Shown: piece by piece, positions 12,716 to 22,309 of the stretch | Layout: every line of letters begins with the position of its first letter | How positions within the stretch are numbered: position 1 is the stretch's first letter | Position numbers and translations under genes: made by a program | Notes under the pieces: model-generated | The model's input: the letters and a program-made list of their open reading frames with translations, nothing else | What the model was told of the DNA's origin: nothing | Database searches by the model: none | Source: Kiloniellaceae bacterium | GTDB lineage: Bacteria; Pseudomonadota; Alphaproteobacteria; Kiloniellales; J153 | Assembly (NCBI GenBank): GCA_021776055.1 | Contig: JAJFGP010000010.1 | Coordinates: forward strand, 1 to 39,193 | DNA length: 39,193 nucleotides | Direction: 5' to 3'

Positions 12716-12736
12716 ATCCAGGGTCTGAAACCGGAC

Positions 12737-12771
12737 AAAAAAATTGGCAAGTCCCCGAGGGGTACCTGCCA
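12737..12771 (-). terminator. Intrinsic terminator, leftward
   Basis: On the - strand, GGCAGGUACCC pairs with GGGACUUGCC (one G-U pair and one A-G mismatch, loop CUC) and is followed by AA and seven U residues (12743-12737). On the + strand the hairpin has two mismatches and no T-run after it, so it works leftward only. Both flanking genes are on the + strand, so it cannot end either of them. Confidence 0.6.
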
Positions 12772-12900
12772 TCGCTTAACCGCCCTGTATTCGTTTCTTA
12801 TTGAGGTCTTTGCGCCTCCCTTGTGCCGCCTTTGACGGCTCCTCCCTAGACTCGGGTCGCGTCGCTTTTGGGCAACGCGAGTACAGGACAGGGAAACCTA
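12737..12900 (-). ncRNA. Candidate structured small RNA, - strand
   Basis: No open frame of note covers the 277-nt gap 12716-12992. Read on the - strand it holds a 10-bp outer helix with one mismatch (12887-12878 with 12793-12784), an 8-bp hairpin within 12879-12858, a 6-bp hairpin with an AAA loop near 12839-12825, and then an intrinsic terminator. Three of these helices contain G-U pairs on the - strand that would be A-C mismatches on the + strand; only the outer helix prefers +. The size (about 165 nt) would suit a 6S-type or other regulatory RNA, but I recognise no family signature (not SRP, tmRNA or RNase P RNA). No clear promoter was found upstream, so the 5' end is uncertain. Confidence 0.35.
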
Positions 12901-12992
12901 CCCCAAGTTGCCGCCCCCGTCACGCCGTAATTTCTGGCGGTGCCTATTCGGTTATTATCTCTTTGTTAAGCCCCTAGACCGAAGCTCAGCCC

Positions 12993-13430
12993 ATGATCTG
13001 GCGCCCCATCCTTTGCCTCGTCTTAGCCTGGTTTACGCTGTCAGGTGTGACTGCGTCTCCGGTTGCGGCGCACGACAATCCGGTCGTAACCATAAGCAGG
13101 GCCGACTGCGATCGTCTTGTCGAGCATCAGCCGGCTCCGGACGTCGCCTATCAACCAGGTGTCGATGTGAATGGCCGTCCGGTGGCGCCCGCGGACCTCA
13201 ACGGCAGCATCCAGATCGCGGTGCCCGAGACAATCCGCATCCCCATCGAGGTTGATCTATTCGATCGCTTTGGCATTCCGGCCAACCCGGACCTATTCGC
13301 CGCCGATGCCCAGGTGGGCGTGGTGACCTACCAGGATGGCCGGGCCTATTTCAACGGCCAGCCCTTGCAGGACGAGGCGGCCGCCGAGCTTTCCGCGCGC
13401 TGCCAGAAGGTCATGCGCGAAGGCCAGTAA
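12993..13430 (+). CDS. Conserved secreted protein of unknown function
   Basis: This 145-residue protein has a clear Sec signal peptide: MIWR, a hydrophobic core at residues 5-19, and a probable cleavage after Ala-26 (SPVAA|HDNP). The mature part is periplasmic and contains the block YQPGVDVNGRPVAPADL (53-69), a beta-rich segment (72-90) and Cys39 and Cys137, the only mature cysteines, which could form a disulfide. Similar genes of unknown function occur near proS in Rhodospirillales, from memory. No catalytic motif is visible. It starts 278 nt after the DUF1467 gene and lies 102 nt before proS. I cannot assign a function. Confidence 0.75.
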   Translation: MIWRPILCLVLAWFTLSGVTASPVAAHDNPVVTISRADCDRLVEHQPAPDVAYQPGVDVNGRPVAPADLNGSIQIAVPETIRIPIEVDLFDRFGIPANPDLFAADAQVGVVTYQDGRAYFNGQPLQDEAAAELSARCQKVMREGQ

Positions 13431-17767: not shown

Positions 17768-20700
17768 ATGCCGCACGCCGGATTCGTTCATCTTCGCGTT
17801 CATTCCGCTTATTCGCTTCTTGAAGGGGCGATCAAGGTCCCCGACCTGATCGAACTTTGCCGCCGTCACGCCATGCCGGCCGTGGCGGTGACCGATAGTG
17901 GCAACCTGTTCGGCACTCTGGAATTCGCCTTCGCCGCCGAAGCCGCCGGTGTGCAGCCAATTATCGGCTGCCAGATCGGTTTGCGCCGCGATGAACCGGA
18001 GGTAGCGGGGGCGACCGGTGCCCGGCCAGCACCCGACCAACTTGTCGTCTTGGTGCAGAACAAACAGGGTTATCAAAACCTGATGAAGTTGGTTTCGCGT
18101 GCGTTCCTGGAGAGCGATCCGGGCGAACCACCGCAAATCGATACGGCCGATCTGAAGACCTTTGGCGACGGCCTTATCGCCCTGACCGGCGGGCCGGCGG
18201 GACCGGTCGGTCGCCGCTTGCTGGAGGGTCAGTTCGACGCGGCGGAGGCGTGTCTCGATACGCTAGCCGGAATCTTCCCTGGCCGCCTGTATGTGGAAAT
18301 CATGCGCCATGGCATGGCCGAGGAGTCGCGCATCGAGGAGCGGCTGATCGATCTGGCCCATGCCCACGATCTGCCGTTGGTGGCGACAAATGAGGCGTAC
18401 TTCGCCGAGGCCGAATTCTACGAAGCCCATGATGCGCTGTTGTGTATCGCCCAAGGCTCCTACGTAAGCGAGCGTGACCGGCGGCGCCTGACACCCGAAC
18501 ACCGCTTCAAGTCCGCCGCGGAGATGTTGGCGCTGTTCGCGGACCTGCCCGAGGCGACGGCTAACACCCTGACGATTGCCCGGCGGTGCGCTTATTTCCC
18601 GGAAGTTGTGAATCCGATCCTGCCGGCCTTCCCGTCTGAGGGCGGGCGCAGCGAAGCCGAGGAGTTGCGCCTACGCGCCGAGGCAGGCTTGCAACGCCGC
18701 CTGGACACCGAAGTGTTAACACCGGACATGGATGAGAGCGAGCGGGCCGCCGTTGCGCATCGTTACCATGAGCGGCGGGACTATGAGCTGGGTGTCATCG
18801 AGCAGATGGGTTTCCCCGGCTATTTCCTGGTCGTCGCCGACTTTATTCAGTGGGCCAAGCAGCAAGGTATTCCGGTCGGACCCGGCCGTGGTTCCGGCGC
18901 CGGCTCGATTGTCGCCTGGGCCTTGACCATCACGGATTTGGATCCCTTGCGTTGGGGTCTGCTCTTCGAGCGGTTCCTCAATCCGGAACGTATCTCGATG
19001 CCGGATTTCGACGTGGATTTCTGTCAGGACCGACGCGACGAAGTCATCCACTACGTGCAAGACAAGTACGGCCGCGACCGGGTAGCGCAGATCATCACCT
19101 TTGGAAAGTTGCAGGCGCGGGCGGCGCTGCGCGATGTGGGCCGGGTGTTGCAAATGCCCTATGGCCAGGTGGATCGCATCTGCAAGCTGGTGCCCAATAA
19201 TCCGGCAAATCCCGTAACCTTGCGCGAAGCGATCGAGGGGGAGCCGCGGCTGCAAGAAATGCGGGCAGACGATGAGTCTGTCGCCCGCCTGTTGGCCATA
19301 TCGCTGCAGGTCGAAGGGCTTTACCGCCACGCCTCCACCCATGCGGCCGGCGTGGTCATTGGCGACCGCCCGCTGGACGAACTGGTGCCCCTCTACCGCG
19401 ATCCGCGTTCGGATATGCCGGTGACCCAATTCAACATGAAGTTCGTGGAAAGCGCCGGCCTGGTGAAATTCGATTTCCTCGGTCTGAAAACCCTCACCGT
19501 TTTGGCACGCGCCTGCGACCTGATTGGCGAGCGCGGCGACCCCCTGGATTTGTCGCGTATTCCCCTCGACGATACCCGGACGTACGACATGCTGGGCCAT
19601 GGCGATACGGTGGGTGTGTTCCAATTGGAATCATCGGGCATGCGCGATGTCCTCAAACGGCTAAAGCCCGATTGCTTCGAGGACATCATTGCCGTGGTCG
19701 CTCTCTACCGGCCCGGACCCATGGACAGTATTCCCAGCTACATCAAGCGCAAACACGGGGAGGAGCCGGCCGACTATCTCTATTCGTCGCTCGAGGGCAT
19801 CTTGAAAGAGACTTTCGGGGTGATGGTCTATCAGGAACAGGTCCTGCAAATTGCGCAGGAGCTGGCGGGCTATACGCTAGGCAGCGCCGACATACTGCGC
19901 CGAGCCATGGGTAAGAAAATAAAGTCGGAGATGGAGGCGCAGCGTAAAACTTTCATCGACGGCTCCGTCATGCGCGGTGTGCCGGAAGCAAAAGCGGCGC
20001 TGATCTTCGAGCAGATCAACAAATTCGCTGGCTACGGTTTCAATAAATGCCACGCGGCGCCGTATGCTTTGCTGGCTTATCAGACCGCCTATTTGAAGGC
20101 TAACTATCCGGTCGAATTCTTTGCCGCATCTATGACTCTCGATACGGGTAACACCGACAAGCTCAACGTCTTCCGTCAGGAACTTGACCGCCTGGGCGTC
20201 CCGTTGCTGCCGCCCGACATCACTCGCTCGCGCGCCGACTTCAGTGTCGAGAAGATTGAGCAGGATGCCGCCGAGGCGCCGCGTTACGGCATTCGCTATG
20301 CCCTGGGCGCCATAAAGAACGTGGGGGCTGCTGCCATGGCCGCTTTGGTGGCAGAGCGCGATACCAACGGCTCCTTTACGGACATGGCCGATTTCGCCAA
20401 TCGGCTGGACCCCCGAGGTGTGAACAAGCGACAGCTTGAGAACCTGGCCTGTGCCGGCGCCTTCGACGGACTTAACCGCAACCGGCACAGTCTCTTCGCG
20501 GCGGCCGAAACCATCGTGCGCACGGCGGCGGCGGCGGCCAATGATCGCGACAGCGCGCAAGAGAGCTTGTTTGGCGGTAGCAGCGGCGCCGCACCCGCGC
20601 CCAGTCTGCCGCTTCCGCCGGTCGACGATTGGCCGGATATGCAACGCCTGCGCCAGGAGTTCGATGCCATTGGCTTTTACCTCTCCGCCCATCCTTTGGA

Positions 20701-21312: not shown

Positions 21313-21334
21313 CCGGCCCACTCTTAATCACTCA

Positions 21335-21408
21335 CGCGGGCTTCGCGGTCCCGGGGGAGACATCCCCGAGAATCGCTCCGGTGTCCGATTTCGGATGCAG
21401 CGCCCGCG
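21335..21408 (+). promoter_or_regulatory. Structured 5' leader of rpsB
   Basis: Within the rpsB leader, CGCGGGC (21335-21341) can pair with GCCCGCG (21402-21408), closing a three-way junction. Inside are a hairpin CGGGGG/UCCCCG with loop AGACA (about 21352-21368) and a small hairpin UCCG/CGGA (21384-21387 with 21392-21395). The closing helix ends 25 nt before the rpsB start codon, close to the ribosome-binding site. By analogy to autoregulated r-protein mRNAs it may bind S2, but that is inference and I do not recognise a named RNA family. Confidence 0.4.
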
Positions 21409-21433
21409 GCGGATCAACCGGAGAAGACTGAAT

Positions 21434-22309
21434 ATGGCGCTTCCCACCTTTACTATGCGCGAGCTTCTGGAAGCTGGCGTTCATTTCGGCCACACCACCC
21501 GACGTTGGAATCCGAAGATGCGACCGTACATCTTCGGCATCCGCAACGGTGTGCACATTCTCGATCTCGAGCAGACGGTGCCGATGCTGCACCATGCCAT
21601 CTCGTTCATTCGTGACATCGTTGCGGGCGGCGGCCGGGTGCTTTTCGTGGGCACCAAACGGCAGGCCAGCGAGAAGGTCGCCGAGGCCGCGAAACGCTGC
21701 GGGCAGTACTACGTCAATCACCGTTGGCTCGGTGGCATGCTGACCAACTGGAAGACCATCTCGCAGTCGATCAAGCGCTTGCGCGACGTCGAAAACCGGC
21801 TGGCCAGCGAGACCGAGGGGCTGACCAAGAAGGAATTGCTCAACCTGACGCGCGAGCGGGACAAGTTGGAGCGCGCCCTGGGCGGCATCAAGGAAATGGG
21901 CGGTCTACCGACAGTGCTGTTCGTCATCGACACGAACAAGGAACATATCGCGGTCGAAGAAGCCAAGGTCCTCGGCATTCCGGTCGTCGCGGTGCTGGAT
22001 TCGAACTCGGACCCGGCGAACATCGATCATGCGATTCCGGGTAACGACGATGCCATTCGGGCCATTACCCTCTACTGCGACCTAATTTCCGAGGCAGTTC
22101 TCGACGGTATCCAGGTCGAGCTTACGGCTACGGGCAAGGACGTCGGTGAGGCGGACGAAACGCCCACCGAGGCTCTGCCAAAAGCTGAGAAAACTGAGAA
22201 AGTCGAGGCCGACAGCGCCGCAGCAGCGCCAAGTGCCGAACCGCCGAGTGACGCGGTGGCAGCAAAGCCCGCCGACGCGCCGGTCGCCAAGGCAGCCGCA
22301 TCTCAATAG
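21434..22309 (+). CDS. rpsB: Small ribosomal subunit protein uS2
   Basis: Protein S2 of the 30S subunit, 291 residues. The core (1-232) has the standard blocks [49 protein letters not shown] and the Rossmann-like [15 protein letters not shown], ending at [11 protein letters not shown]. The last 50-60 residues are a low-complexity Ala/Lys/Glu/Pro tail, a feature of alphaproteobacterial S2. The long open frame upstream is not coding; the ATG at 21434 is preceded by CGGAGAAG. rpsB and tsf are 30 nt apart and form the usual pair. Confidence 0.97.

Follow-up and report, generated by a model that had tools for sequence, protein, structure and literature searches.

alphaR8 is among the most widespread sRNAs of Alphaproteobacteria, with roles in storage polymer control in Sinorhizobium and in carbon starvation in Caulobacter. 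To our knowledge, only one sponge of alphaR8, CrfA, has been described so far. In Caulobacter crescentus, CrfA sequesters the four alphaR8 sRNAs SisA-D through its G/A-rich second stem-loop, for which the evidence came from RIL-seq, probing and compensatory mutations, and it switches this bacterium between feast and famine (PMC12559287, Nat Commun 2025). The crfA gene starts at position 3,781,500 of its chromosome (PMC5988900). QrrX of Vibrio and AsxR/AgvB are likewise independently transcribed sponges (PMC12559287). Here we describe a locus in a 39,193-nucleotide stretch of DNA from a Kiloniellaceae bacterium (the whole stretch is called the window below) that very probably holds a minus-strand sRNA gene. 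Its product, as judged from the sequence and its relatives, is probably an independently transcribed anti-sRNA, or sponge, of alphaR8 that would act much as CrfA does.

A predicted minus-strand RNA between the DUF1467 gene and proS

The gap at 12716-12992 of the window is bordered by a DUF1467 gene (PF07330) on one side and by a small unnamed ORF and then proS on the other, all on the plus strand (Table 1). The first-pass annotation, made from the letters of the window, had proposed a leftward small RNA here, between two plus-strand neighbours and with no minus-strand open frame. The ORF list (cut-off 50 aa) agreed with this, as both neighbours are on the plus strand and the gap holds no minus-strand ORF of at least 50 aa. 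No start codon lies at a conserved distance past GGGAGGA on the minus strand either, and a protein-coding reading, with GGGAGGA as the Shine-Dalgarno sequence of a small ORF, was rejected on these two grounds.

The leftward terminator hairpin with its seven U residues was found as the annotation had described it, and so were two further hairpins and the 10-bp enclosing helix; one more hairpin, hairpin 3 in Table 1, had gone uncounted. G-U pairs on the minus strand, where the plus strand has A-C mismatches, are present in the terminator and in the first and second hairpins, and the outer helix is the exception it was said to be, with the reverse pattern (C-A on the minus strand). The minus strand folded at -71.4 kcal/mol (z = -3.07), with 0 of 200 shuffled sequences folding as well, and the fold of the plus strand was unremarkable (z = -0.70). 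A consensus-based terminator scan did not flag the terminator hairpin, and the evidence for it is therefore the direct reading together with the conservation seen in seven relatives.

The RNA was present in eight of the nine genomes of the family, on the same strand and in the same place, from the DUF1467 gene to proS; in the ninth genome (G003) it was absent from this place. The copy from the same genus (G001) is ~76% identical, with an identical T7 tail and compatible changes in the terminator, and in its hairpin 2 the outer G-C pair is replaced by A-U and a U-G pair by C-G. In five further family genomes the RNA is likewise on this strand and upstream of proS, and the copy in G004, which was located by a covariance model, also adjoins a DUF1467 gene. 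RNAalifold, applied to seven sequences, gave 31 pairs, 11 of them with compensatory changes. The alignment of the DUF1467-proS region that the annotation had put forward as a check showed the helices to be conserved in relatives, with the outer helix confined to the window's genus.

Of the family RNAs, 8 of 8 have kept the minus-strand terminator, as have 14 of 15 in the window's order. A promoter-like pair, GTGACG and TAnnnT separated by 17 or 18 nt, stands at the corresponding place in the family (GTGGCG in G008). In the window's genome alone this -35/-10 pair is weak by consensus and not significant (p = 0.22); across 15 genomes of the order the combined p was 0.003. The minus strand was also better folded than the plus strand in 14 of these 15 genomes (p = 0.001), or in 13 when a longer segment was used. 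By computation, the RNA would thus have a promoter and a terminator of its own, as is expected of an independent sRNA gene, and we are confident that a real minus-strand sRNA gene lies here.

Table 1. Features of the gap and its borders, in window positions
Feature	Position	Strand	Basis or remark
DUF1467 gene	ends 12715	+	neighbour of the gap
Terminator U7 tail (A7 on +, T7 on -)	12737..12743	-	direct reading
Predicted small RNA, ~150 nt	12738..12888	-	start predicted by its distance from the -10-like element, end within the T run
Intrinsic terminator hairpin	12746..12770	-	direct reading and conservation
Outer helix	5' arm 12878-12887, 3' arm 12784..12793	-	window's genus only
Hairpin 3, GAGGCGCAAAGACCUC	12803..12818	-	alignment with relatives
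Hairpin 2, GCCGUC AAA GGCGGC	12825..12839	-	alignment with relatives
Core, CCCGAGUCUAGGGAGGA	12840..12856	-	17-nt perfect complement of the alphaR8 seed of its own genome
Hairpin 1, 9 bp, U-G pair on -	12857..12880	-	fold and RNAalifold
Partial weak alphaR8 (RF00519) match	12825..12880	+	18.5 bits, cut-off 41
-10-like element TAGGTT	12895..12900	-	promoter-like pair with GTGACG
-35-like element GTGACG	12918..12923	-	7/12 consensus match in the window's genome, p = 0.22
Unnamed secreted-protein-like ORF	12993-13430	+	between the gap and proS

The RNA matches no Rfam family. None of the Rfam 15 families reached its gathering score in the gap or in the minus-strand loci of the relatives, and the sole match in the gap was a partial, sub-threshold one to alphaR8 (RF00519) on the plus strand, at 18.5 bits (cut-off 41); on the minus strand RF00519 gave no match. 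Elsewhere in the window, 21331-21435 on the plus strand matched RF01815 (rpsB sRNA) at 51.9 bits (cut-off 40), the only match of the window at gathering level.

The first-pass annotation had called the RNA 6S-like by size, or else an unnamed RNA of Alphaproteobacteria, and had suggested a scan with the 6S model in particular. Size and the enclosing helix are the only features that speak for 6S RNA. The outer helix is a property of the genus alone, the 6S model (RF00013) did not match the gap even at E = 10, and the 6S RNA of this genome was found on another contig (G000:C101:6429-6585, 72.9 bits), which therefore excludes the 6S identity of the window's RNA for practical purposes. What stands of the earlier reading is the leftward RNA of Alphaproteobacteria, now at ~150 nt, of which the sequence, strand, place, terminator and helices are conserved.

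A core complementary to the seed of alphaR8

Among 143 17-nt windows, the core CCCGAGUCUAGGGAGGA was the most conserved, with a mean pairwise identity of 0.89 vs 0.51 elsewhere in the RNA. It is the exact complement, over 17 of 17 bases, of UCCUCCCUAGACUCGGG, a stretch that covers the alphaR8 seed of the same genome and the bases next to it. This alphaR8 (G000:C39:6779-6862, 56.8 bits) is intact and lies near an N-formylglutamate amidohydrolase (FGase) gene, where alphaR8 is found in most species (PMC12559287). In the 3.72 Mb genome the 17-mer occurred in two places only, here and opposite alphaR8, and a genome-wide search at one or two mismatches gave nothing further. The plus strand of the core resembles alphaR8 because the core is the complement of alphaR8, and we take the RF00519 match on that strand to be the core seen in mirror image, not a gene.

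The degree of conservation bears on whether the RNA has a function at all. The minus strand could be a relic, as the complement of an alphaR8 paralogue that has decayed, or could form part of a neighbour's transcript (its 5' leader or its 3' end), and the alphaR8-like character of the orthologous locus in other orders would suit such an origin. But the core is the best conserved part while its surroundings have diverged to ~51% identity, every family RNA keeps its terminator, and both neighbour genes are on the other strand, so that we regard a functionless relic as highly improbable.

Across the eight family genomes with the RNA, the predicted duplex between it and alphaR8 lay between -35 and -42 kcal/mol. 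Pairing was imperfect in G001, G002, G004, G005 and G007, and the match in G008 extends to 25 bases if one G-U pair is counted. Within the core, CCCGAG pairs with CUCGGG of alphaR8 in G000, G001 and G004, and CCCAAG pairs with CUUGGG in G007 and G008, with a U-G intermediate in G006. A swap test of these partners within the family gave 3048 of 40320 permutations (p = 0.076), which is only suggestive because three of the eight alphaR8 seeds are identical. The class-wide swap test gave 0 of 100,000 permutations, with pairs such as CUCAGG with CCUGAG. This covariation is no proof of sponge action, because sibling sRNAs would show the same pattern: if the loci are alphaR8 siblings on the other strand, they would share the seeds for that reason, and the test was dropped as proof of sponge coevolution.

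A wider core paired with its own alphaR8 at -43.7 kcal/mol, and with other candidates bearing CCUCCC at -18 to -30 kcal/mol. Co-folding of the RNA with alphaR8 gained ~28 kcal/mol, and GAGUCUA of the core forms an open 7-nt loop in the predicted structure. The core is also purine-rich and Shine-Dalgarno-like, as might be expected of a trans-acting sRNA whose GGGAGGA is aimed at other RNAs, such as mRNAs with CCUCC or 16S rRNA, with the alphaR8 match being secondary; the core of family f4, GGGTGGA, pairs more weakly with alphaR8, in keeping with such targets. We consider this unlikely, as the complementarity runs well beyond CCUCCC, its CUCGGG/CUUGGG part varies together with alphaR8, and alphaR8 alone was matched over 17 nt genome-wide.

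The best conserved stretch of the RNA thus mirrors the working end of alphaR8, which suggests that the RNA probably soaks alphaR8 up. In this sponge mechanism, the free-standing minus-strand gene would give an sRNA of ~150 nt, the exposed core of which would bind, over at least 17 bases, the anti-Shine-Dalgarno seed of alphaR8, an Hfq-dependent sRNA (mmgR; SisA in Caulobacter). Covering of the seed would free the mRNA targets of alphaR8, and decay of one or both RNAs would probably accompany the pairing. We infer the transcription of the RNA, its contact with alphaR8 in the cell, the involvement of Hfq, the outcome and the inducing condition. Some of the complementarity may have been inherited and not selected, since the same locus looks alphaR8-like on its opposite strand in other orders.

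Two other alphaR8-like elements were also seen. The second alphaR8-like candidate of the genome (L176; G000:C50, RF00519 match 19496-19575, minus strand), below the Rfam cut-off, reads UCCUCCCUGAACUCGGC followed by a GC hairpin and a U-run, and its predicted duplex with the window's RNA has -30.1 kcal/mol. Another conserved sRNA-like element, CACGUCUCCCAGACGUGAAGCCUCCCUGUUAAACUUGCCGG followed by a hairpin and a U-run, occurs in several family genomes, in the window's own genus and in relatives (L052, L053, L055, L057), and resembles alphaR8 at 26-29 bits, also below the cut-off.

The two strands of the locus across the order and class

A second covariance model, R2, was used for the order and for 385 sampled genomes of the class. 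It placed loci of this kind in families f1, f4 and f5 of the window's order, and the class sample added eight further families with at least 19 genomes, Niveispirillum cyanobacteriorum among them. Most of these loci with enough flank have a DUF1467 gene beside the RNA, and many also have the small ORF or proS, so that the locus appears to be orthologous. The notion that all matches of R1 and R2 are sponges was dropped: outside the family, most of them are simply alphaR8 genes read on the antisense strand, which were recognized by poly-A ahead of the first hairpin and AAACGCC past the core and set aside. All 30 of the 30 sequences from named, mostly hyphomicrobial, genomes were of this antisense type. 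Through the antisense strand, three tandem alphaR8 copies within 1 kb came to light in Ancylobacter lacus (L248, L267, L275; G454:C77:126045-127037). In family f4, four loci (L197, L201, L208, L192) have the core GGGTGGA or GGGTGGG in place of GGGAGGA, with a mismatch to the alphaR8 genes there, and this variant may be a sign of another partner sRNA.

In other orders, the opposite strand of the locus matched RF00519 over the whole model with scores of 32-41 bits, which fall slightly short of the cut-off. On this alphaR8-like strand most genomes show a U-run terminator, and promoter-like sites are present too. Compared with the sponge strand, its fold was the better one in 19 of 19 genomes (16 of 19 with a longer segment). 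The sponge strand shows strong promoter- and terminator-like signals there as well, and Niveispirillum cyanobacteriorum has this two-strand form. At five class loci (L225, L226, L228, L223, L221), a TGCANTGCA-like inverted repeat stands right before the sponge-strand terminator, and a promoter-like site of the alphaR8-like strand, TTGCCA-N17-CATATT, overlaps the terminator stem.

These observations, together with the weak plus-strand RF00519 match in the window, would be explained if the functional gene were on the plus strand here too, as an alphaR8 paralogue (a sibling sRNA), and its mirror image had been taken for an antisense RNA. But the plus strand has no conserved U-run terminator in the window's family and almost none across the order, and it showed no promoter signal in the order (combined p = 0.32). 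It also folds worse, RF00519 gave no plus-strand match at E <= 1 in G001 or G008, and it is the minus-strand signals that are conserved. A plus-strand paralogue therefore seems improbable to us, and we retain the minus-strand sponge.

The presence of signals on both strands elsewhere and the loss of the plus-strand terminator and promoter in the window's order suggest a strand switch, which we offer as a tentative history of the locus. The DUF1467-proS locus of many Alphaproteobacteria would be an alphaR8-like sRNA gene with an overlying antisense unit. In the window's order the alphaR8-like strand may have decayed and the antisense RNA alone been kept, now serving as a trans-acting sponge of the remaining alphaR8. 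If this is true, an sRNA gene became the gene of its own family's antagonist. The locus points to a concrete way in which anti-sRNAs could originate, namely on the strand opposite a sibling of their target.

Relation to CrfA and other anti-sRNAs

Model R1 gave no clear match in seven Caulobacterales genomes, and its single match there, L181, reads as the antisense strand of alphaR8. The pattern AGGGAGGAAA, tried as a route to CrfA in two Caulobacterales, was rejected: it gave three matches in each, four of the six opposite alphaR8 genes and two in unrelated contexts. CrfA was compared by its published description. In silico there is good support for a CrfA-like mode of action, which does not extend to the RNA being CrfA itself. 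As an RNA outside Rfam that has a fixed place and a perfect antisense core, it would show the antagonism of alphaR8 to be more general.

The plus strand of the core and, at 32-41 bits, the orthologous locus of other orders are what tie the locus to the alphaR8/mmgR/SisA family (RF00519, 'suhB'). Unlike in that family, the conserved terminator, the promoter-like sites and the better folding are all on the complementary strand here. With CrfA the window's RNA shares an independent sRNA gene, a G/A-rich site complementary to the common alphaR8 seed and the same predicted effect. The layout is also similar, with a first hairpin, the G/A-rich seed-antisense site, further hairpins and the terminator, and the pairing with alphaR8 would extend over at least 17 nt, compared to ~15 in CrfA (G49-C63). 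QrrX and AsxR/AgvB are likewise free-standing anti-sRNA genes, in different hosts and with different target sRNAs.
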